DNA from: Gilvimarinus sp. 2_MG-2023 | GTDB lineage: Bacteria; Pseudomonadota; Gammaproteobacteria; Pseudomonadales; Cellvibrionaceae | DNA: 64,000 bases | Direction: 5' to 3' | Assembly: GCF_030547685.1 (NCBI RefSeq) | Contig: NZ_JAUOQM010000048.1 | Span: 280,358 to 344,357, forward strand | Shown: positions 53,542 through 64,000 of the stretch, in pieces | How the letters are laid out: each line of letters starts with the position of its first letter | Numbering within the stretch: position 1 is the stretch's first letter | Notes under the pieces: model-generated | What the model saw: only the letters and a program-made list of their open reading frames with translations | What the model was told of the DNA's origin: nothing | The model's database searches: none | Position numbers and translations under genes: made by a program

Positions 53542-53940
53542 TCAAGCTTTCCCTTCAGTCGCAATCCCATCCCAACCAGCTTTTAAGGTTTTTAGGAGAC
53601 GCCCGACCTCTTGCAACAACTCGGGGTTTTGATCGCGGGTTGCGTCGAACAAGCGAAATTCACAATACTGATACAAGCTATCCAGCTGGTTGGCGAGCTC
53701 GCCAGCCTGTTCGTCCAGGCTGTGACGTAAAGCGGCTACAATCTCAATAACACGACCAACTAATGCGCCCGACGACGCATAATCGGCTCGAGTCATCGAG
53801 ACTTCCGCCTGTTGGAGGCGAGTTAAGGCCCCTTCAAATAACAATTGGATTAAACGATGAGGGGACGCCGAGTTCACATCGACCTCGAGGCCGAGCTTGC
53901 GATATTGTGACGCCGCCTTGGTTCCGCTGTAACCTACCAT
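53542..53940 (-). CDS. Second FliS-family flagellin chaperone
   Basis: A 132-residue FliS homologue. It starts MVGYSGTKAASQYRKLGLEVDV, followed by the family motif SASPHRLIQLLFEGALTRL (compare 'SPHRLVQMLFEGAL' in the other copy) and ends in LKAGWDGIATEGKA. FliS binds the flagellin C-terminus to stop early polymerisation. I start at the ATG ending at 53940, where the FliS similarity begins; the frame runs on upstream into the previous gene. Its separate job, if any, is unknown; options are a second flagellin or another export client. Confidence 0.85.
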   Translation of the reverse strand: MVGYSGTKAASQYRKLGLEVDVNSASPHRLIQLLFEGALTRLQQAEVSMTRADYASSGALVGRVIEIVAALRHSLDEQAGELANQLDSLYQYCEFRLFDATRDQNPELLQEVGRLLKTLKAGWDGIATEGKA

Positions 53941-53962
53941 ACAGTCCTCGACTCCGAGCCGG

Positions 53963-54241
53963 TTAACCAACCGCTTTGCATTGCGCAAGGCGATTACATT
54001 CTTGTAGCATTTGCCGATAAACAGCCTTTAAGTCGCGCATGGCATCTAAGAGTGTAGCTTTGTCGGTGCCGTTGGCGCTAACCAGTGCGTCGAGCACTAC
54101 CGCACAGGTGTCGTCCAGCTGGCGCACACGGTGATAATCACCGCGCGCCAAGGCGCGGTACATATCCGCCTGTACTTGTTGTAACTGCTCCACGCCTAAA
54201 GGGCCCTGTAAAGACGGACGATCAATCAGCTGCAAGCTCAT
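53963..54241 (-). CDS. FliT-like flagellar chaperone
   Basis: A 92-residue, helical protein without strong motifs (LQQVQADMYRALARGDYHRV, in part, and a C-terminal helix LKAVYRQMLQECNRL). Size, helical nature and position between two fliS copies after fliD suggest FliT, which chaperones FliD. The sequence is too short and diverged for certainty. The start I use (ATG ending at 54241) is 2 nt after the fliS stop; the frame continues into fliS. Confidence 0.6.
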   Translation of the reverse strand: MSLQLIDRPSLQGPLGVEQLQQVQADMYRALARGDYHRVRQLDDTCAVVLDALVSANGTDKATLLDAMRDLKAVYRQMLQECNRLAQCKAVG

Positions 54242-54243
54242 TA

Positions 54244-54645
54244 CTACACTCCCGGCCCGGCGGAGATACCGTCCCAAGCCGTTTTAATTTCGCCTAATAA
54301 ACGTCCACACTCATCAAGCATAGCCGGATCACTTTGGCGATTGGCTTCTATTAATCTACGCGCAATATAATCGTACAACTGATCCAGGCTGGCTGAGAGA
54401 TCACCGCCTTCGGTGTCATTCAAGCTACCCTGCAAGCCTTGCACAATGTTTATGGCTTTTGAGATTTTCTCACCTCTGAGCGCAATATCGCTGCGTAACA
54501 TAGCCCCTTTTGCTTCGGCTATGCGCTGTAAAGCACCCTCAAAAAGCATTTGAACTAACCTATGAGGGGAGGCATCAACGACACTGGATTGAACGTTGAC
54601 TTGCTGGTACTGTTTGGCGGCAGCGCTGTAAGGACTCATACACAC
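54244..54645 (-). CDS. fliS: Flagellin export chaperone FliS
   Basis: FliS binds newly made flagellin and guides it to FlhA. The 133-residue protein starts with the usual MCMSPYSAAAKQYQQVNVQS segment and has SPHRLVQMLFEGALQRIAEAK and the C-terminal LGEIKTAWDGIS. It lies 161 nt after fliD and is presumably on the fliD transcript from the sigma-28 promoter. Confidence 0.93.
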   Translation of the reverse strand: MCMSPYSAAAKQYQQVNVQSSVVDASPHRLVQMLFEGALQRIAEAKGAMLRSDIALRGEKISKAINIVQGLQGSLNDTEGGDLSASLDQLYDYIARRLIEANRQSDPAMLDECGRLLGEIKTAWDGISAGPGV

Positions 54646-54806: not shown

Positions 54807-56822
54807 TTAACTCTGCGCAGTGAAAGGTAGGCGATCGTTAATATCCTGCAAAAAGGAGCCTGTATTGGTTAAGTTATTAACGATCAGTTCCATTGCCAAA
54901 AATTGGCTTTCTAAACGCGCTCGATATGCATCGGTTCGACGATCCAATTCAGTTCGATCGTCTTCGATATCAACTAAGTCTTGCTCGATATTACTTTCTC
55001 GCGATGCAATAAGACCAGTGCTACCTAAAAAACCATTAATCAAGCTGCTCATAGTGCCGGAAAAACCACGCGAGAAGTTAATAGTGGCTGTCGTAGCCCC
55101 CTCTTTAATTTTCAAGGCGAGCCCCTCTGCTGCCGTACCAAGCTTGGGCAGTAGTACCTGTCCTGAACCGAATGCAACCTCACCATCGACAGTACCGGCC
55201 ACATTGGTCCCTACTCCACCGGTTGCCACACTTAAACCCAAGTCTGCTGTATCAGCACCTATGCTAGTAATATTCACTTTACTACTGCTACCATAGGCGT
55301 TGGAGATAAAATTAAGTGCGCCAGCGTCATAATCCACCGTGATACTGGTAGAGGTTCCGGACAACTCTTGCCCCGCATTAATCAATGACTCGATTTCAGC
55401 GGCCAATTCAGCACCGCTGGTGTAAGTTTTCCCATCTGGCAAACTGATTTGGGCAGTTTTGTCATCGACTTCTACTGCAAAACTATAATCTTTACCCGTG
55501 GTATCCAAAGGAAACCCAGCCGTTGCTGCACCTGATAAGGAGCCGCGACTAGGTTGCTGGGTAATAATGACTTCGTAGCTACCCGGCTGGCTGTATTGGG
55601 TAAAATTCGTCACCTCAACGGCAGCCGAGTCTGACCCGGTTTGCGGTACAAATATGTCACGCACTAAATCGTAGTTTTGGGCCATCACCGCATTGAAATT
55701 CGTATTGACCCGAGCAGGATCTTCATCGATTGAAAGCGTACCATCTGTCACATTCGTTTGAATGCCCAACTGCGCCAAAGACGAGAAGTCACCTTGTATA
55801 CCCGGAACTGTGCTCTTAATAACATTGCGCACTTGATCAATAATATTATCGGCCATGGAGTCGGTATGCAGGCTTCCGTACTCACCGGTTTCATCATTAA
55901 TGCCGACCAGCTGCTCAACCGCATTTATAAAGGTGTTATAGGCCTCAACAAAATCACGGATTGCGGTTTCAGCCAAGTCTCGATCTTCACCAATAGTGAT
56001 ATTGACCGTTTCAGTATTGGACACATTGAACAGATCCATGGACAAACCGTTAATAACATCATCCACGCTATTGGTCTCACGAGTCACCTGTAGGCCATTA
56101 ACTCGTAAAATCGCATCTTTCCCTTCCTGCTGCTGAGTCATATTTTGACTGACAGTGTTAAAGTCAAACTGAGACAAACCTGGGGAACCTGCATCTTCGG
56201 CCACCGTCAGCTCAACTTCATTGCTAGCCCCGGTGGGGCCCGTTAACAGTAAACGGAAGCTACTGCCATCACTAACAATACTAGCCTGCACCCCGACATC
56301 GGCGGCGTTTATCGCATCCCGCAACCCTTCCAGGGTATTATTAGAATCATCGATAACAATCGTGGCACCATTTTTTTCGGTATCTACCGAAAAATCATCC
56401 AAAGCAGCATTCCATTGCCCTAACCGCAGGGTGATTTCCCCTTTGCCAACTTCCGCATCGGCACTGCTAAATCCTGAGCTTGCCAGGGACTGAGATTGAG
56501 CGATTTGCTCAACTTGCACTTGATAACTGCCGGCGATTGCACTGGAATCCAGTTCAGTTAAACCGAGCAATGAAGTCTCGGGTACAGAAACGGATTTGGC
56601 ATCAAAGGTGTCAGCACTGCCTAACTGTGCAACAGAAAGCTCCAACTCCGACAATGCGCTGCGTAACAAGCCGTAGTCAGAAATTTGCGTTTCTAAAGTT
56701 GCCTCTTTGGTATCCAGACGGTTTTCATCCGGGGCACGGTTTATGCTCACCAAATCATTGATCAAGCTGGTGGTATCAATTCCCGAACCCCCACCGAGAC
56801 TGCTGATAATGTTGTTTGCCAT
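54807..56822 (-). CDS. fliD: Flagellar filament cap protein FliD
   Basis: FliD caps the filament and folds incoming flagellin. The 671-residue protein has the N-terminal FliD_N region (SGIDTTSLINDLV), central beta-rich domains and the C-terminal coiled region (SLINGFLGSTGLIASRES to LTNTGSFLQDINDR). It is about 200 residues longer than E. coli FliD (468). Extra domains lie around residues 395-560 and resemble flagellin-type inserts (ELAAEIESLINAG). A sigma-28 promoter lies 41 nt upstream. Confidence 0.95.
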   Translation of the reverse strand: MANNIISSLGGGSGIDTTSLINDLVSINRAPDENRLDTKEATLETQISDYGLLRSALSELELSVAQLGSADTFDAKSVSVPETSLLGLTELDSSAIAGSYQVQVEQIAQSQSLASSGFSSADAEVGKGEITLRLGQWNAALDDFSVDTEKNGATIVIDDSNNTLEGLRDAINAADVGVQASIVSDGSSFRLLLTGPTGASNEVELTVAEDAGSPGLSQFDFNTVSQNMTQQQEGKDAILRVNGLQVTRETNSVDDVINGLSMDLFNVSNTETVNITIGEDRDLAETAIRDFVEAYNTFINAVEQLVGINDETGEYGSLHTDSMADNIIDQVRNVIKSTVPGIQGDFSSLAQLGIQTNVTDGTLSIDEDPARVNTNFNAVMAQNYDLVRDIFVPQTGSDSAAVEVTNFTQYSQPGSYEVIITQQPSRGSLSGAATAGFPLDTTGKDYSFAVEVDDKTAQISLPDGKTYTSGAELAAEIESLINAGQELSGTSTSITVDYDAGALNFISNAYGSSSKVNITSIGADTADLGLSVATGGVGTNVAGTVDGEVAFGSGQVLLPKLGTAAEGLALKIKEGATTATINFSRGFSGTMSSLINGFLGSTGLIASRESNIEQDLVDIEDDRTELDRRTDAYRARLESQFLAMELIVNNLTNTGSFLQDINDRLPFTAQS

Positions 56823-56862
56823 ACCCTACTCCAGATATCAAAAAATTATTGCCTACATGAGG

Positions 56863-56889
56863 TTATCGACTAAACTCAGCTTTACTTTA
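56863..56889 (-). promoter_or_regulatory. Sigma-28 (FliA) promoter of fliD
   Basis: On the minus strand TAAA (complement of 56886-56889) is followed after exactly 15 nt by GTCGATAA (complement of 56863-56870). That is one mismatch to the FliA consensus TAAA-N15-GCCGATAA. It is 41 nt before fliD. Confidence 0.85.
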
Positions 56890-56908
56890 AACCTTCCTTA
56901 ATTTTAGA

Positions 56909-56936
56909 GCAAAAAAAAGGTGCCGTAAGGCACCTT
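56909..56936 (-). terminator. Rho-independent terminator of flaG
   Basis: AAGGTGCC (56917-56924) pairs with GGCACCTT (56929-56936) around GTAA. On the minus strand eight T follow. It starts 20 nt past the flaG stop. Confidence 0.94.
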
Positions 56937-56955
56937 GAAGCGTTCTTTTTGACTA

Positions 56956-57345
56956 TTATGCCTGAGCAGTCAGTAAAGATACCGGCTCATCTGCATTCAA
57001 TTCACGGGCCAACTTTAAGAAAATCTCATCCGGGATTTGTCGAATTAGCTTTTTAGTAGAGCTATCTAACACTTTCACAATAGTGTCACCTGAGTCACCA
57101 TCATAACTAAACTGCAGGTCGCGCTGGGTAGACTGTATGAACTCATTCATATGGGCTACCGCTTGCTGAACACTTTGCTGAAATTCTCCCGCGGGGATCT
57201 TCTCTGCCTCTACCACCTGATGTTTTGTTTCTTCGGGTGGCAAACTTTTGCCGCTTGGTTTAGCGAAGTCAGCCTGTGCCGATGAAGCCGCACCAGAGCG
57301 CGCAGGGCTATAGCGTTCTGCCACTGTTGCGTTCACTTCATTCAT
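56956..57345 (-). CDS. flaG: Flagellar protein FlaG
   Basis: FlaG is a small protein found beside flagellin genes and linked to filament length in some species. The 129-residue product has a variable N-terminal half and the conserved C-terminal FlaG region (residues about 75-122: LQFSYDGDSGDTIVKVLD, LIRQIPDEIFLKLARELN). GAGGAT precedes the ATG. Only 17 nt separate the start from the fliC terminator stem, so transcription must come by read-through. Confidence 0.93.
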   Translation of the reverse strand: MNEVNATVAERYSPARSGAASSAQADFAKPSGKSLPPEETKHQVVEAEKIPAGEFQQSVQQAVAHMNEFIQSTQRDLQFSYDGDSGDTIVKVLDSSTKKLIRQIPDEIFLKLARELNADEPVSLLTAQA

Positions 57346-57361
57346 AGCTTAATCCTCAATC

Positions 57362-57389
57362 AATAAAACCCACCGGTGACCCGGTGGGT
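57362..57389 (-). terminator. Rho-independent terminator of fliC
   Basis: ACCCACCGG (57368-57376) pairs perfectly with CCGGTGGGT (57381-57389) around a 4-nt loop. On the minus strand TTTTATTG follows. It starts 11 nt past the fliC stop. Confidence 0.9.
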
Positions 57390-57399
57390 AGATTCAGTC

Positions 57400-59136
57400 T
57401 TATTGCAGCAAAGACAGTACTTGCTGTGGACGGGCATTCGCCTGAGCCAGCATGGCAGTAGCTGCTTGTTGTAACACCTGAGACTTACTCAATGCCGCGG
57501 TCTCTTGAGCGAAATCTGCATCCATGATTCGAGACTTAGCAGCAGACGTCTTCTCTGATACGTTGGTCAAGTTAGATACAGTGAAGTCCAGGCGGTTGTT
57601 TACCGCACCCAAGTCTGCACGGGTTTCACTTACCTGGCTGATTGCTTCGTCGAGAATCCCAATGGCTTTTTGAGCACCTGCCGCCGTGGAGATATCAATA
57701 CTTGCCACAGAACCTGAACTGCCAGCTGCATTACGTTCCTGCAAACCAGTGGCGGCTAAAACGCTAGCTGCAGTAGATGAATCGCCAGCCTTAATGGATA
57801 TTTCACCACCGTCAGTGGAGCGAAGCGCAATAGCACCTGTGGTATCACCGGCAAAGGCGACAACGCCGGTCAAGTCGGAAGATTCATTGATAACCTTAAT
57901 GACTTCGGCAGCCTGAGTTGAAATAGTTGGCGTACCGTCCTGATCATCAATAGCACCTATTTCAATTCCATTGATGATTAAATCACCTTCTTCAAGGTCA
58001 GTACTGGCAGTCGTCGCCGCACCCTGTAAATTTCCATCATCATCGTGAGCATCAATGCCGAGCGCCTGGAGCTCCGCGGCAGTTGCAGTACCCATTTCAA
58101 TTTTCACACCGGACTTATCGGCAGAGGTATCATTGAAAACCATTGAGAAGTTTGTGGTTGCCGCATCTAGCCCAGAGTTGGTTAGTGCATCACCAGAACC
58201 TGCCACTGTAACCGAAGTAGCGCCAGCGCCACTTAATTCGATACGGCCTGCATCGTTAATACGCGCTTCAAGCGAGGTTTCATCGTTGATTTTGGCAACC
58301 AACTCGTCAAGACTCTTAGTGCCACTAACTTGGGTAACCTGAGTTTCACCATTACCATCGGTGACCGTTAGAGTTAGCTGATCGGTACCAGTAACAAGTA
58401 CACCAGAACCTACGCTAGACCCTTCTACGTTCACGATAGCTGAGGCCTCAGCACCTTTGCCATCCAAATCTGCGTTGATAGTCGCCAACGCCTCATTTAG
58501 GGTAGTGGCAGTATCTAAGGCACTGATATCAGTATCATTAATTGAGATGTCGCCAGCAGTATCCAAGGCTGTTAGATCCGCCAGACCATTTGTAGCAGCC
58601 TCACCCACGATATCGCCAGACGTTCCACCTAAAGAACTGGTACTGAACGAACCTACAGAAATTTCGATGGTCTGATTCTGCTCAGAACCTACTTGTAGCG
58701 CGGTATCTTGCAAGCTGCCATCCAGCAGCGCTTGGCCATTGAATGTTGTTTCTGCTGCAATGCGGCTCACTTCTTCTTTGAGCTGCTGTGCTTCTGAATC
58801 CAATCGTGCACGGTCGTCATCTGAATAGATGCCGTTAGCAGACTGAACCGATAGTTCACGCATACGCTGCAGAATGTTGGTCACCTCTTGCAAGGCACCC
58901 TCTGCGGTTTGAATCATCGACACACCATCGTTGGCGTTACGAACCGCTTGATCCAGACCACGGATTTGCGAGGTCATACGGTTAGCAATCGCGAGACCGG
59001 CGGCATCGTCTTTTGCTGAGTTGATACGGTTACCGGACGACAAACGTTCGGTGGCTTGGTCAAGCGCGTTGCCTGATTGTAACAGCTGGCGCTGAGTATT
59101 CAGGGAGGCAACGTTGGTATTAATTACTAGAGCCAT
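57400..59136 (-). CDS. fliC: Flagellin
   Basis: Flagellin is the filament subunit exported by the flagellar system. The 578-residue protein has the conserved D0/D1 ends: MALVINTNVASLNTQRQL and LSSGNRINSAKDDAAGLAIA at the N-terminus, and ARIMDADFAQ-type sequence (SRIMDADFAQETAALS) with LAQANARPQQVLSLLQ at the C-terminus. The exposed middle, about residues 175-475, is acidic, Thr/Ser/Ala/Asp-rich, and contains three flagellin_IN-like segments (about 195-260, 258-315, 383-450). No cysteine is present. A single flagellin gene is seen here. Confidence 0.97.
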   Translation of the reverse strand: MALVINTNVASLNTQRQLLQSGNALDQATERLSSGNRINSAKDDAAGLAIANRMTSQIRGLDQAVRNANDGVSMIQTAEGALQEVTNILQRMRELSVQSANGIYSDDDRARLDSEAQQLKEEVSRIAAETTFNGQALLDGSLQDTALQVGSEQNQTIEISVGSFSTSSLGGTSGDIVGEAATNGLADLTALDTAGDISINDTDISALDTATTLNEALATINADLDGKGAEASAIVNVEGSSVGSGVLVTGTDQLTLTVTDGNGETQVTQVSGTKSLDELVAKINDETSLEARINDAGRIELSGAGATSVTVAGSGDALTNSGLDAATTNFSMVFNDTSADKSGVKIEMGTATAAELQALGIDAHDDDGNLQGAATTASTDLEEGDLIINGIEIGAIDDQDGTPTISTQAAEVIKVINESSDLTGVVAFAGDTTGAIALRSTDGGEISIKAGDSSTAASVLAATGLQERNAAGSSGSVASIDISTAAGAQKAIGILDEAISQVSETRADLGAVNNRLDFTVSNLTNVSEKTSAAKSRIMDADFAQETAALSKSQVLQQAATAMLAQANARPQQVLSLLQ

Positions 59137-59232
59137 GAGTAATCTCCTAAGTTTTTTTCCTGTTCACAGTCTTGCCAGCTGTGATCAGCCGATTTACCGA
59201 AGCCGCAGGGTTTGCATTTGCTTCTGTGTAGG

Positions 59233-59259
59233 TTATCGGTCAGTTTTCAGGAAGCTTTA
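59233..59259 (-). promoter_or_regulatory. Sigma-28 (FliA) promoter of fliC
   Basis: On the minus strand TAAA (complement of 59256-59259) is followed after 15 nt by ACCGATAA (complement of 59233-59240), one mismatch to the FliA consensus. The leader to the fliC start is about 90 nt. Confidence 0.9.
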
Positions 59260-59332
59260 GGATTTTTGGCATTTTTTTAAAAAATATCTTAACTGGTTGA
59301 TTTTATTTGTTATTTTTCTTCCAATTAAGTCT

Positions 59333-59656
59333 TTAAGAGCGGTGATAAGCGTTAATAGCGCGATTATTGGTGCGATTTTGCTGATGCTCCTGACGAATAT
59401 CGGCCAGGTAACGTTGAGATATTGCCTGAATTGTCTGATTTTGCCTTTGCAAGGCCGCAATTTCAGCACTTAAAGCCATTGATTCGGACTCATCCAAGGT
59501 CTGCAGTGCTGGGCAATCCAGCTGATGCAGCACCTGATCACGCTGCAGGCTTAATTCACCAAACCGGTCCCATTCACCCTTTTCAGCATTATCCCGCAAA
59601 CGTTTATTAAACTCTTTCGTTTGCTCAATAATACCGCGCCAGTCAAATTCTTGCAT
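59333..59656 (-). CDS. Small helical protein between flgL and fliC
   Basis: A 107-residue protein that I do not recognise. It is predicted wholly helical, rich in Gln, Glu, Arg and Asn, with no signal peptide or membrane segment. The central region (ELSLQRDQVLHQLDCPAL) resembles the short helical-hairpin chaperones of the FliT/FlgN type, but without a diagnostic motif. It begins 13 nt after flgL and so probably shares the flgKL transcript; it ends before the fliC promoter. A chaperone for FlgK, FlgL or FliC is one possible role, by position only. Confidence 0.6.
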   Translation of the reverse strand: MQEFDWRGIIEQTKEFNKRLRDNAEKGEWDRFGELSLQRDQVLHQLDCPALQTLDESESMALSAEIAALQRQNQTIQAISQRYLADIRQEHQQNRTNNRAINAYHRS

Positions 59657-59669
59657 CAGTCACCCGTGA

Positions 59670-61256
59670 TTACGAAATGTAATTAAACAGCGATAAGCCC
59701 GCCACCTTCACAAAGCTCTGCTGTGCCGCCGATAATACCAGCTGCTGCATCTCCAATCGGGTGGCAGCTTCAGCATAATCCAGCGCTTCTAGGTCATTTA
59801 ACACCGTTTCTGTATAGAGCTTGGTATCGAGGTTCTGTTCGCGGGTACTCTCCAACGTGTTGAGTCTAGCCCCCACCTCGCCCTGAACCACCGAGATATT
59901 GGTAACGGCATTGTCTAGATTGGCCAGCGTTTGCCCGACCACCTCTGCTAGGCGCTCCTCGCTTGCGGGCGTACCATCAAGCTCATCCATGGCCTCACTT
60001 AATCGAGTGAGCGTGGTCGATAAGCTTTGCTTGTTAGTGCTAATAAGCGTGAATGAATCCCCTTTTACGGCCTCTATTCCATCAACTGATGCAGTGCCCG
60101 CACCACTGGTGGTAATCCCTAGCATAGCATCGACCGCAGCACTGGGGGATTGCACCACTAATGATTGGCCACTGGCGGCGCTAAAACCGGTCGCATCTGC
60201 CACCACGCCTAAGCGTGCCAATTTGGTGGCATTGGTTCCGCTATTAAGTGCCGCCGCTAGGTCTGCCGCACTGGTAATGTTCTGATTCAGGACCAAGGTC
60301 TCGGTTTGATCTCCTAAGCTAAGCGTGATTTCAGCTTGGCTCACCGTAAAGTCAGTCGGGGTTATACCGCCATAGTTAACGGTCGATGGAGTCGCTAATG
60401 CCGCCTCAGAAGGTGCCCCCAAAATACTAAACGAGGCTCCCGCCACTTCGATACTCTGACCGCTGACAAATGGCTCGTTGGCGAGTAAGGTCTGCCCGGT
60501 TGCCTGGTTAATAACCGAAAAGTTAGCACCCGCAGGAATCACTGCACTGGTTTCATTGAACTGGATGATTAGGTTATCTGGGTAGAGCTCATCAAAAGCC
60601 TCTTGATCGACTACATCGCCAACACTTATACGCGCAGCCGGAGTGGCGCGATTTGCGGGATTAGCTTCAGTGTAGAAAGTGTTATGACTGCTGGGGATGT
60701 CGACAAATATACGCTTGCCCGAATCACTCACATCCACAGCAACACTGCCAGAGGCCTGCACCTGACGCTGACCTTCATCGCCGTGGTAACTGAGCTGACC
60801 GTCAGCGTTCAAACTAAAGGGTTGTGCGTCCCCCTGATAGCCTGAAAAGATATACTGGCCTGCTGCGTTGCGTGTATTTTGCAAGCTGAGCAACTCTTCA
60901 ATACGGCTATTCGTTTCAGCAACTAAGGCTTTATAATCGTCCGGTGTTAATACGGCCGTGTTACCCGCACTAACAGCCAACTCCTGCATTCTCTGAACCA
61001 GCGACAAAACGCTATCGAGCGCTGTCTCTTCTAAATTCAGACTGTTCTCAGCCACATCAATATTTTTAATATGCTGCTCGGTTCGACTTATTTCTTCGTT
61101 CAACTGCAGTATTTGAGTGGCTGCTACTGGGTCGTCAGCAGGGCTGAGTACGCGCTTGCCTGAGGCCATTTGCTCCTGAGTTTTAGTCAAGGCAGTCTGG
61201 GCATTTGTCATGCCGATGTTAGCAATGTTGTATATTTGCGAAGTAGCCACACGCAT
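59670..61256 (-). CDS. flgL: Flagellar hook-filament junction protein FlgL
   Basis: FlgL forms the second junction ring between hook and filament. The 528-residue protein has flagellin-like ends (MRVATSQIYNIANIGMTNAQ; KRVLSPADDPVAA near residue 35; C-terminal YAEAATRLEMQQLVLSAAQQ). E. coli FlgL has 317 residues; the extra length lies in the middle, about residues 175-420, including a segment (ITSAADLAAALNSG) resembling flagellin inserts. It lies 31 nt after flgK. Confidence 0.95.
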   Translation of the reverse strand: MRVATSQIYNIANIGMTNAQTALTKTQEQMASGKRVLSPADDPVAATQILQLNEEISRTEQHIKNIDVAENSLNLEETALDSVLSLVQRMQELAVSAGNTAVLTPDDYKALVAETNSRIEELLSLQNTRNAAGQYIFSGYQGDAQPFSLNADGQLSYHGDEGQRQVQASGSVAVDVSDSGKRIFVDIPSSHNTFYTEANPANRATPAARISVGDVVDQEAFDELYPDNLIIQFNETSAVIPAGANFSVINQATGQTLLANEPFVSGQSIEVAGASFSILGAPSEAALATPSTVNYGGITPTDFTVSQAEITLSLGDQTETLVLNQNITSAADLAAALNSGTNATKLARLGVVADATGFSAASGQSLVVQSPSAAVDAMLGITTSGAGTASVDGIEAVKGDSFTLISTNKQSLSTTLTRLSEAMDELDGTPASEERLAEVVGQTLANLDNAVTNISVVQGEVGARLNTLESTREQNLDTKLYTETVLNDLEALDYAEAATRLEMQQLVLSAAQQSFVKVAGLSLFNYIS

Positions 61257-61287
61257 GGCAAAACCCTTTCGTTATCGACCTTTAAGC

Positions 61288-64000
61288 CTAAATAGAATTA
61301 ATTAAGGTATCAAACAGGTCACGTGCCACAGTAATCACACGTGCATTGGCACTATAAACCTGCTCAAACTTAATCAAATTAGCCGCCTCTTCATCCAAAT
61401 TAACCCCTGAGATACTGTCTCGCAGACTTTGGGTTTGCTCCAGCAAGTCTTTCGCCGCACTGGCATTAGTGCTGGAGAGGTTGCTCTTGGTGCCAATATC
61501 TTCCACCAGTCGACCGTAGGCTTCAGCAAAGCTTAAGCCACCATCATCGATGGTTCCAGCCGTTTCCAACTCGGCAAATTTCAATCCGTTGCGGTTGTCA
61601 TTACTTGCATCGGCATTGAAGTCTATAGTGAATGTATCGCCCGCTTGTGGCTGACCTTTAATCGTAACCTGAAAACCTAAGTAATTTGATTGTACAAAGT
61701 CTTCTGCCGTTGTATCTCCTAACAGAGGGCTTTCACTTGACGCGCTGATTAACTCAATGCCATCTGACATGGCAATATCCATGCGCCCACCGACAGTGAT
61801 AGCATTGTCTGCGCCAGCGTTGAGCGCCTGATCGAGCCCACCCACTCCGTCGCTGACATCAATAGTGTCGCCGGGTGCGCCATCCAGTCGGATGTCCAAA
61901 TTTACGCCACTAGATGCTGCCACAAATAATTGCGGCTGACCGCCACTTCCCGTTGTAATACTCGCGTTAACACCTTTCGCCACTAACGCAGGATTGGCAT
62001 TAATTTGCTCAGCAATATATTGATAAAAGCCAAGCTCATCAGTATTTGGGTCCGGTACGCCTGACGCTATTAATGCGCCATCGTACTCAACCAAATCCTC
62101 TCCGTTAATCTGTAACTGCAAAGGGTTGGTGAATGTGGTGCTAATACCACTAATACTAGCGGTAGTATGTGCATTGACGGTAACACCAGCGATACCACTG
62201 AGCAAAGACGCTGTTTGTTCAGCTGACGCATTGGGCGCGGTGAGCACGACCTGTTCCTGTCTAAGGCCGGTGTCTGGATCAGTGCTAACAAAAGTATAAC
62301 GCTCGGCAGGGTATTGATTCGGCTGTGCCGGACCGACCATCCCCAGAGCTTCAGGCACACGACTCCCCAAGCCCGTTGTAAACCCATCTCCCGCCACTAA
62401 AGTTGAGCCAGGATCTGTAGCAAATACGGAATTTTCCAAATTAGGGGTAAATTCCATATTGTTCATCGGTGGATTAAGTGGTACAGGATAAGCGGGGTTA
62501 GAGTTATCTAATACCTCATAGGTCGTCTCTGAGGTGAAGCGTATTACTAAAGGAGGGCTAAGCTCCCCCGCACTCGCAAACATCGGTAACGTATTGCCCT
62601 CGGCGTCAGTGACTTGCATCAGCTCACCGGCACTCACAAGCCCGCTGCCTGCATTACCAGACGATGTACCCGTACGTATAGGCGATGCTAACGCTATGTC
62701 CTCGGGGCGAGTCAATAAGGTTTCAATATCCCGAGCGCCATTTGCAGTCGGCTGTATCGTAAATTTATCTCCAGCCTGGAAAGAACCGGACACCAAATTA
62801 ACACTAATACCATCAAAACTAATTTCCGCGGGATAGGCTCCAGGCAATAAACCCTGAGCAACGATTTCATTATCATCTTTGCGAGTAATAACGTAGTTTT
62901 TTGACCCTGTGGGAATCTTCAATTCGTAATCGCTAGTGGTTAGCTGGCTTATATCGTCAATAGTGACGCTGATTTGCCGATCGGACGGCGCTGCATTATC
63001 ACCATGAAGTACTCGATCAGCTGCTAGAGAGGGATCATTAATATCGACGAACAAATTCGCACCATAGTCACCATCCAGGTCTAGGCCTTGCTGCTGCAAC
63101 TGATTAAATTCTTCGGTTAGCGCTAGGGCAACCCGACCGAGCTCATTTTTGGCAGGCTGCAATACATCACTGCGAAAGTTTAATAACCCGCCTAATTTGC
63201 CACCGTTGATTTGGCTAGTCACATCCGCAGTTTGTGACCCATTTTGAAGCTGAACTTGCCCCTGCTCGTCCACCGAAAAACTACCGACATTAGTACCAAC
63301 TACCAGAGCCTGGCCGCTGGCAATATAGACATTCATCTGTCCATTCCCAGAGTCAACCGATTGAATGTCAATAAGTTCCGACAACTGCAACAACGCTTCA
63401 TCGCGCTTATCAAGCAAATCATTGGGCATAGCAGAAGCCCCACCGACTTTATTGAGTTGATTATTTATATCGGCAATGGACTGAGCAAGAGAGGTCACCT
63501 GTTTGGTAACGGTCTTAACCTCGATATTGATATCAGTTTGCAGGTCATGTAAACGATCATAAATTTGATTAAAGCGCAGTGCTACACTTTCAGCTTGGTC
63601 GACGAATAATTGCCGTGCCGGAGTAGAAGAAGGCTCATCCGCGGCATTTTGCACCGCAGAGAAAAAATCCTGCAAAGCGCCGGACAGGCCACTGCTACTA
63701 TCGGCAAAAAGACTGTCAATTTTTCCTATATTTACGTTGTAAGTTTCAATCTGTCCATACGCGGAGGTATCCAAGCGCAGTTGACCATTCACAAACTGAT
63801 CAACGACCCGCTCAATGGATGTGGTGCTTACGCCACTGCCAAGAAAACCAGCAGAGCCGATACTTTGTTCCGGACGTGTGGTGTATTCAACTTGCTGGCG
63901 GCTGTACCCCTCTGTATTCGCATTTGAGATATTGTGCCCTGCGGTTCGCAGGGCATTTTGGCTCGCCTGCAGGCCGGAAATTGCGTTGGATAAGATACCG
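61288..64000 (-). CDS. flgK: Flagellar hook-associated protein FlgK (start beyond the window)
   Basis: FlgK forms the first junction ring. The reading frame is open to the right edge: 69 codons upstream of 63792 encode the typical FlgK N-terminus (NAISGLQASQNALRTAGHN, NTEGYSRQQVEYTTRP), so only a few residues are missing. At least 903 residues are visible, against 547 in E. coli. The conserved C-terminus is VNLDEEAANLIKFEQVYSANARVI and LFDTLINSI. The extra 350 or so residues lie in the centre (about 350-750 counted from the visible start). Confidence 0.95.
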   Translation of the reverse strand, partial: GILSNAISGLQASQNALRTAGHNISNANTEGYSRQQVEYTTRPEQSIGSAGFLGSGVSTTSIERVVDQFVNGQLRLDTSAYGQIETYNVNIGKIDSLFADSSSGLSGALQDFFSAVQNAADEPSSTPARQLFVDQAESVALRFNQIYDRLHDLQTDINIEVKTVTKQVTSLAQSIADINNQLNKVGGASAMPNDLLDKRDEALLQLSELIDIQSVDSGNGQMNVYIASGQALVVGTNVGSFSVDEQGQVQLQNGSQTADVTSQINGGKLGGLLNFRSDVLQPAKNELGRVALALTEEFNQLQQQGLDLDGDYGANLFVDINDPSLAADRVLHGDNAAPSDRQISVTIDDISQLTTSDYELKIPTGSKNYVITRKDDNEIVAQGLLPGAYPAEISFDGISVNLVSGSFQAGDKFTIQPTANGARDIETLLTRPEDIALASPIRTGTSSGNAGSGLVSAGELMQVTDAEGNTLPMFASAGELSPPLVIRFTSETTYEVLDNSNPAYPVPLNPPMNNMEFTPNLENSVFATDPGSTLVAGDGFTTGLGSRVPEALGMVGPAQPNQYPAERYTFVSTDPDTGLRQEQVVLTAPNASAEQTASLLSGIAGVTVNAHTTASISGISTTFTNPLQLQINGEDLVEYDGALIASGVPDPNTDELGFYQYIAEQINANPALVAKGVNASITTGSGGQPQLFVAASSGVNLDIRLDGAPGDTIDVSDGVGGLDQALNAGADNAITVGGRMDIAMSDGIELISASSESPLLGDTTAEDFVQSNYLGFQVTIKGQPQAGDTFTIDFNADASNDNRNGLKFAELETAGTIDDGGLSFAEAYGRLVEDIGTKSNLSSTNASAAKDLLEQTQSLRDSISGVNLDEEAANLIKFEQVYSANARVITVARDLFDTLINSI

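Follow-up and report, generated by a model that had tools for sequence, protein, structure and literature searches.

Outer-domain modules of flagellar axial proteins in Gilvimarinus: a homologous module in the hook protein FlgE and the junction protein FlgK, and its covariation across relatives

Introduction

The outer domains of flagellar axial proteins have been described in several systems, of which the following is taken from the accessible parts of the published reports. Both head domains of FliD of Pseudomonas aeruginosa resemble FlgK and FliC (PMC5072837), and the D2 domain of FlgL has been described as resembling that of FlgK (PMC6155364). In Campylobacter jejuni, FliD has an extra D4 domain and FlgL a bulky D2, both of which are absent from Salmonella (PMC12221982), and the divergence of FlgK has been argued to be an adaptation to a hook protein carrying two extra domains (PMC5691160). 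The length of the hook protein varies greatly (PMC5069557), and in the giant flagellins of marine gammaproteobacteria the outer region grows by internal duplication and insertion (PMC6248924). Because such outer domains have already been published, including the folds shared by FliC, FliD and FlgK and the hook–junction compensation of Campylobacter, the modules described below belong to a known kind.

In this study, we analysed a stretch of 64,000 nucleotides of Gilvimarinus sp. 2_MG-2023 (the window; positions 280,358 to 344,357 of contig NZ_JAUOQM010000048.1), following up a preliminary description made from its sequence. The source genome groups with Gilvimarinus.

Results

At the end of the window, the minus strand encodes a flagellar cluster comprising flgK, flgL, a FliT-family gene, fliC, flaG, fliD, fliS, a 104-aa ORF and a second fliS. 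The flgK gene (61288..63999, minus strand, as are all genes and modules below) has 903 codons in the window; in the whole-genome locus the protein is 905 aa, the start codon lying just past the window edge. FlgK belongs to the orthologue family TIGR02492 (352.1 bits against the curated NCBIfam cut-off of 170.75), and FlgL (59670..61256, 528 aa) to TIGR02550 (293 bits against 127.2). A FliT-family chaperone gene, identified by Pfam (59333..59656), lies between flgL and fliC (57400..59136, 578 aa; Flagellin_N/Flagellin_C in Pfam), and flaG (56956..57345) lies between fliC and fliD (54807..56822, 671 aa; FliD_N/FliD_C in Pfam). The 104-aa ORF, flanked by the two fliS paralogues (53542-54645 of the window), has no Pfam match at E<=1. 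The hook gene flgE (L166:6023-8377, 784 aa) is just outside the window.

The preliminary description had called FlgK, FlgL, FliC and FliD all enlarged relative to E. coli. Their sizes (905 aa for FlgK in the whole-genome locus, 528 for FlgL, 578 for FliC and 671 for FliD) were confirmed, but the comparison overstates the enlargement: E. coli is a poor size baseline for these proteins because FlgL is often about 400–440 aa in this family and order, and the FliD insert region is held by 34 of 43 FliDs. The inserted modules of FlgL (residues ~284-400) and FlgK (residues ~530-775) are discrete and occur in 48 of 111 FlgLs and 56 of 106 FlgKs, and NCBIfam already includes models of FlgL with 524 or more positions. 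FlgKs of the order fall mainly into short (about 640–700 aa) and long (about 860–930 and 1005–1064 aa) classes; outside the order, the medians over the 90 genomes of the class with both proteins measured were 649 aa for FlgK and 428 for FlgE. FliD is 670–678 aa in all eight Gilvimarinus genomes sampled, and its insert is therefore stable within the genus. FlgE, at 784 aa, exceeds its counterparts in two same-genus relatives by about 360 residues, some of which belong to a segment homologous to the FlgK insert. In one Cellvibrionaceae genome, an in-frame stop splits flgL (L098:10001-11586 and L047) into frames of 421 and 105 aa.

The inserts had been likened to modules of the Flagellin_IN type, one segment being named in each protein. 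None of the four segments reached the curated cut-off of Flagellin_IN (PF07196), which is 22.7 bits: EVIKVINESSD of FliC scored 16.2 bits and ADLAAALNSG of FlgL 12.1, and neither ELAAEIESLINAG of FliD nor YIAEQINANPA of FlgK was listed at E<=10. The same holds for the inserts as such, with 12.1 bits for FlgL and nothing listed at E<=10 for FliD and FlgK. The FlgL value is at noise level, because an unrelated 755-aa frame of the same genome scores 13.6 bits. Two segments other than those named reached or approached the cut-off. One is FliC 254-303, with 29.8 bits (28.8 when scanned as a fragment), in the outer D2 region of FliC (residues ~170-480; 57697..58629), where a second IN-type unit at 408-442 stays below it. 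The other is FliD 155-189, with 24.9 bits (22.4 as a fragment), in the ordinary D2/D3 head domains of FliD (residues ~85-275; 55998..56570). When whole proteins were scanned with hmmscan, Flagellin_IN was listed in none, FliC included. At E<=10, matches occurred in 10 of 14 control genomes, among which are organisms that we take to be non-flagellated. Flagellin_IN was thus rejected as the single explanation of the inserts, which lie below the cut-off, where matches reach even an unrelated frame of the genome.

FlgE came to attention through a weak match to Flagellin_IN located beyond the window. Comparison of FlgK with FlgE of the same genome by BLASTP gave 31% over 161 columns (E 1e-6), and in profile–profile comparison the FlgK module (61681..62418) matched the FlgE module at 99.8% over 208 columns, a value that none of 60 column shuffles attained. 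With an HMM of the FlgK module and a threshold of E<1e-3, the module was detected in 41 of the 83 FlgEs that were complete, including that of the same genome at 1.2e-20; the best reversed decoy lay at 0.081. At the same threshold it detected 13 of 77 FliCs, one of 43 FliDs and one of 111 FlgLs; the FliC of the window, at E 0.14, was not found. These comparisons indicate that the FlgE and FlgK modules are homologous over most of both inserts.

The predicted model of FlgK has a mean pLDDT of 85.1, with 10-residue block means of 80–93 across the module stretch. Residues 538-764 of the model aligned with D2/D3 of P. aeruginosa FliC (8erm_B) with a Z score of 14.6 and an rmsd of 3.4 A over 181 of 203 residues, and Foldseek gave E 2.5e-6 for the same comparison; the predicted insert thus superposes on a solved flagellin D2/D3 fold. 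Slices of the alignments were also run against each other in hhalign, with reversed profiles serving as control. The FlgK insert matched the FliC outer region at 94.4% (reversed controls below 1%), and a narrower FlgK-insert profile matched FliC D2 at 82.2% (reversed 6.6%); the FlgE module matched FliC D2 at 96.8% in profile–profile comparison. A tree was built from 108 module copies, which remained of 126 matched stretches once those filling less than half of the columns had been dropped. In this tree the FlgK, FlgE and FliC copies cluster by protein, with five label changes against a mean of 42 in shuffled trees, and the nearest neighbour is a copy from the same protein in 105 of the 108. 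Because the copies cluster in this way, the sharing of the module looks old, and recent copying between flgE and flgK inside one genome was rejected.

The FliD inserted module (residues ~394-585; 55068..55643) matched D2/D3 of FliD itself at 96.6% over 160 columns in hhalign and at 93.3% over 158 columns in a rerun, which identifies it at profile level as a duplicated, diverged second copy of the FliD D2/D3 head. A search of the PDB with the FliD-insert profile returned no FliD at E<=10, and none of the four module profiles found a relative below E 0.4 among PDB sequences. FliD D3 matched part of FliC D2 at 88.8% (reversed 4.9% and 0.6%); within FliC D2 itself, two parts matched at 95.9%. The FliD and FlgK inserts matched at 38.2% (reversed 5.3–6.5%) and at 14.2% in a rerun, a weak link between the two module sets. 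The FlgE of one relative (G009, L041) carries a stretch matching the FliD-insert profile (E 5.2e-21), a possible case of module exchange between cap and hook.

In the predicted FlgL model (mean pLDDT 83.1), the insert (residues ~284-400; 60057..60407) runs through two strands, two helices, three further strands and a last helix; whole-chain fold comparison mainly reflected the remainder of the protein. Three same-genus relatives lack the insert, although the parts of their FlgLs that align are 77–81% identical. Its nearest profile relative is the FliD insert, with mixed evidence. Family-level profiles of the two matched at 91.7%, and at 84.9% in a rerun with a score of 39.4 against a best of 19.9 among 60 column shuffles. 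With a broad set including distant FlgLs, the value was 18.8% (reversed control 6.6%), the highest for the FlgL insert in that set. At E<1e-3, an HMM of the FlgL insert detected no FliD among 43, the best reaching 0.04, and an HMM of the FliD insert detected three of 111 FlgLs, giving 0.074 for the FlgL of the window. Because these single-profile searches did not confirm the profile–profile match, the relation between the two inserts is probable but not proven. Homology between the FlgL and FlgK inserts was not established: broad slices gave 6.8–10.8% (reversed controls 0.1%), and a rerun 2.2% with a score of 20.2, barely over the best of 60 shuffles (19.5). The D2 domains of FlgL and FlgK matched at 93.8% in hhalign. 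DNA-level repeats were discarded as a link between the inserts, since only nine two-copy families of 20–27 nt, 73–82% identical, were found. Of the proposal that the inserts are of a related kind, what stands is that those of FlgK, FliD and probably FlgL appear from the profiles, and for FlgK from the predicted fold, to be outer-domain modules related to flagellin or to FliD D2/D3; a kinship between the FlgL and FlgK inserts does not. The likeness noted earlier is real for most inserts as remote homology detected by profiles, and not as the curated Flagellin_IN motif.

Covariation was examined in 114 record sets, retained from 128 after removal of identical FlgLs. Phylogenetic contrasts were computed on a quick tree of FlgG, FlgH and FlgI, of which 99 of the 114 sets had enough. 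The length contrasts of FlgE and FlgK gave r 0.72 (83 tips, permutation p 0.0002), and 0.58 without the three strongest nodes. Removal of three nodes lowered FlgE–FliD from 0.50 to 0.15, FlgK–FliD from 0.36 to 0.06 and FlgK–FlgL from 0.25 (permutation p 0.019) to 0.19; FlgE–FliC gave 0.44, FlgK–FliC and FliC–FliD 0.40 each, and FlgE–FlgL 0.19. FlgL length showed no correlation with that of FliC (0.06) or FliD (-0.04). FlgL was also tied to FlgK only weakly, and the idea that all four sizes track together was not supported among the relatives checked. The strongest size link sits outside the set of proteins first considered, in FlgE, which is encoded beyond the window, shares the FlgK module and covaries with FlgK the most.

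Presence of the module, tested in the 83 sets with complete FlgE and FlgK and leaving out the other 31, agreed between the two proteins in 76 genomes (36 with both, 40 with neither, two with FlgK only and five with FlgE only); the profile was built from FlgK inserts, so that the FlgK matches, though not the FlgE matches, arise by construction. The fewest changes on the tree were eight for the FlgK module, seven for the FlgE module and 18 for a long FlgL (>=490 aa), which comes and goes largely by itself. Among five supported independent pairs differing in the FlgK module, FlgE followed suit in an average of 3.5 and changed in the opposite direction in 0.0 (median p 0.125, the pairs being too few).

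Individual genomes illustrate the range. Large FlgK (1151 aa), FlgE (1162) and FlgL (656) occur together in G050, and FlgLs of 766–769 aa accompany long FlgK and FlgE in G053 and G056. Many Pseudomonas records combine a long FlgL with short FlgK and FlgE (e.g., 557, 687 and 435 aa for L112). Four relatives (L066, L070, L138, L142) have giant FliDs (1163–1328 aa), large FliCs (954–1196 aa) and FlgLs that stay at 408–418 aa. FlgE is complete in two of these four, G041 and G045; FlgE, FliD, FliC and FlgK measure 1580, 1305, 976 and 1021 aa in G041, and 1193, 1163, 1196 and 1005 aa in G045.

Outside the order, 8 of the 11 genomes whose FlgK is at least 750 aa had a FlgE of at least 530 aa, against 5 of the 79 with smaller FlgK, and family means of the two proteins gave a Spearman coefficient of 0.35 over 72 families. 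Exceptions include G190 (FlgK 1218, FlgE 417) and G159 (FlgK 649, FlgE 773). These lengths are those of stop-to-stop frames, from which pieces at contig ends or below threshold were dropped (FlgK of G079, G116 and G194; FlgE of G116 and G216). Where a genome had two FlgEs the best was taken, except that for G138 the copy on the FlgK contig was used (542 aa instead of 405 aa), which works in favour of the correlation.

Two Gilvimarinus genomes, G002 and G006, have a FlgE of 419–423 aa and a FlgK of 639–648 aa, both without the module, while their FliC (573–578 aa) and FliD (671–674 aa) keep their size. In the FlgG/FlgH/FlgI tree the two branch as the sister group of the remaining six Gilvimarinus genomes; G025, G026 and G031, which come next on the tree, bear the modules. 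Because the outgroups of Gilvimarinus bear them, loss of both modules in G002 and G006 is the simplest reading. The changes go beyond the modules: FlgK D2/D3 and FlgL D2 are 28–33% identical to those of the window, against 59–78% in other Gilvimarinus, the cores are also more diverged (55% for the FlgK N core, against 68–75%), and one FlgK segment, the C core, is nearer, after G006, to a Marinimicrobium. Recombination may for this reason account for part of the difference. That the whole flg block was replaced is conceivable but not favoured; FlgG of both genomes is 89% identical to that of the window (89–95% in other Gilvimarinus) and the modules are missing all the same.

Discussion

Taking these results together, we suggest that surface modules drawn from a loosely related stock sit on conserved D0/D1 cores, with those of FlgE and FlgK forming a matched outer shell and those of FlgL and FliD being freer, a reading to which we give an even chance. 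One set would be the flagellin D2/D3-like module of FlgK and the hook protein FlgE; the other would comprise the FliD insert, a duplicated D2/D3 head, and the FlgL insert as its probable relative. FliC D2 would tie to the first set directly and to the second through the ordinary D3 of FliD. The FlgE and FlgK modules, placed on neighbouring layers of the growing structure, could form one matched shell over hook and junction, and a change in one would therefore be compensated in the other; such an arrangement would imply that the modules touch and agree in thickness or stiffness, and might benefit the cell. The modules of FlgL and FliD would sit on the next ring and on the cap, where they could be gained and lost with fewer constraints. 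In a more far-reaching form, which we put forward tentatively and think unlikely to hold in full, the flagella of the order use interchangeable outer modules, those of FlgE and FlgK have to match and are gained, lost and remodelled jointly as parts of one continuous outer shell, and the hook–junction boundary acts as a check of assembly compatibility.

It is possible, if somewhat unlikely, that each axial protein instead varies its outer domain alone, in the manner of flagellins, driven by phage, predators or surfaces, from a common stock and with hook and junction unmatched. Three observations fit such independent variation. Across 14 supported independent pairs differing in long FlgL, the FlgK module was unchanged in 10.1 on average; a FliD-type insert occurs in one FlgE (G009); and the D2 of G002 FliC (L034) is nearest to that of a Marinimicrobium (75%, against 43% to that of the window) and its ends are 88–91% identical to those of the window, so that this FliC likely underwent an outer-domain swap. 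The FlgE–FlgK correlation speaks against it, being the highest of all ten length pairs, none of the others exceeding 0.50, as does the absence of both modules from G002 and G006 at unchanged FliC and FliD sizes.

A correlation of FlgE with FlgK could also come from common descent alone, or from the neighbouring flg genes having been transferred in one piece, which we consider doubtful. The genes from flgE to flgK form one same-strand run, several concordant genomes across the class (FlgK 759–776 aa, FlgE 538–559 aa) may be one clade, and the independent-pairs test falls short of significance. Against this, the tree used for the contrasts was built from FlgG, FlgH and FlgI, which are encoded between flgE and flgK, and block transfer is therefore largely controlled; the ordinary FlgG identity of G002 and G006, which nevertheless miss both modules, points the same way. 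Least probable by far is the idea, raised for glycans or ligands in the preliminary description, that the modules offer a shared surface for binding glycans, ligands or substrates over the full length of the flagellum. It would suit the related outer folds of FlgK, FlgE, FliC and FliD and could draw on a nucleotidyltransferase and a phosphomannomutase-type gene among 20 neighbouring ORFs (both common housekeeping types), but the modules form two diverged sets with FlgK and FlgE copies in separate old clusters, the FlgL module is dispensable within the genus, and no glycosylation island was recognised in the 20 ORFs scanned of 37 of at least 180 aa in window positions 1-50000.

The matched FlgE–FlgK shell that we prefer would bear on flagellar architecture in general. 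A flagellin-type outer domain is present on hook and junction proteins, not on the filament alone. If hook and junction need matched outer modules, this would amount to a general, testable rule of constraint between neighbours, reaching beyond the single case of Campylobacter and open to direct test within Gilvimarinus, where some close relatives carry the modules and others do not.

Among known systems, the P. aeruginosa FliD study likewise describes outer-domain folds common to cap, junction and filament proteins; in its accessible part these are the ordinary domains, whereas here extra modules occur in FlgK, FliD and FlgL and also in the hook protein FlgE (PMC5072837). The D2/D3 domains of P. 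aeruginosa FliC (PDB 8erm), to which the FlgK insert was matched in fold, belong there to a filament protein and here to a junction protein. The giant flagellins show the same mode of outer-region growth, described in the accessible text for flagellin only, without matching changes in hook, junction or cap (PMC6248924). A partial literature search found no report of a module common to FlgE and FlgK that varies jointly across species. A further parallel is C. jejuni, with its large FlgL, extra FliD domain and enlarged hook protein and the idea of a fit of FlgK to FlgE (PMC5691160, PMC12221982). It differs in being one lineage in which, according to the accessible part of the report, the folding and position of FlgK D2 are altered and no matching module is present (PMC5691160); that its FlgK answered with a different D2 arrangement counts against a matched shell. 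Unlike in C. jejuni, the FlgK module described here is homologous to that of FlgE, and the two are missing together in two relatives.
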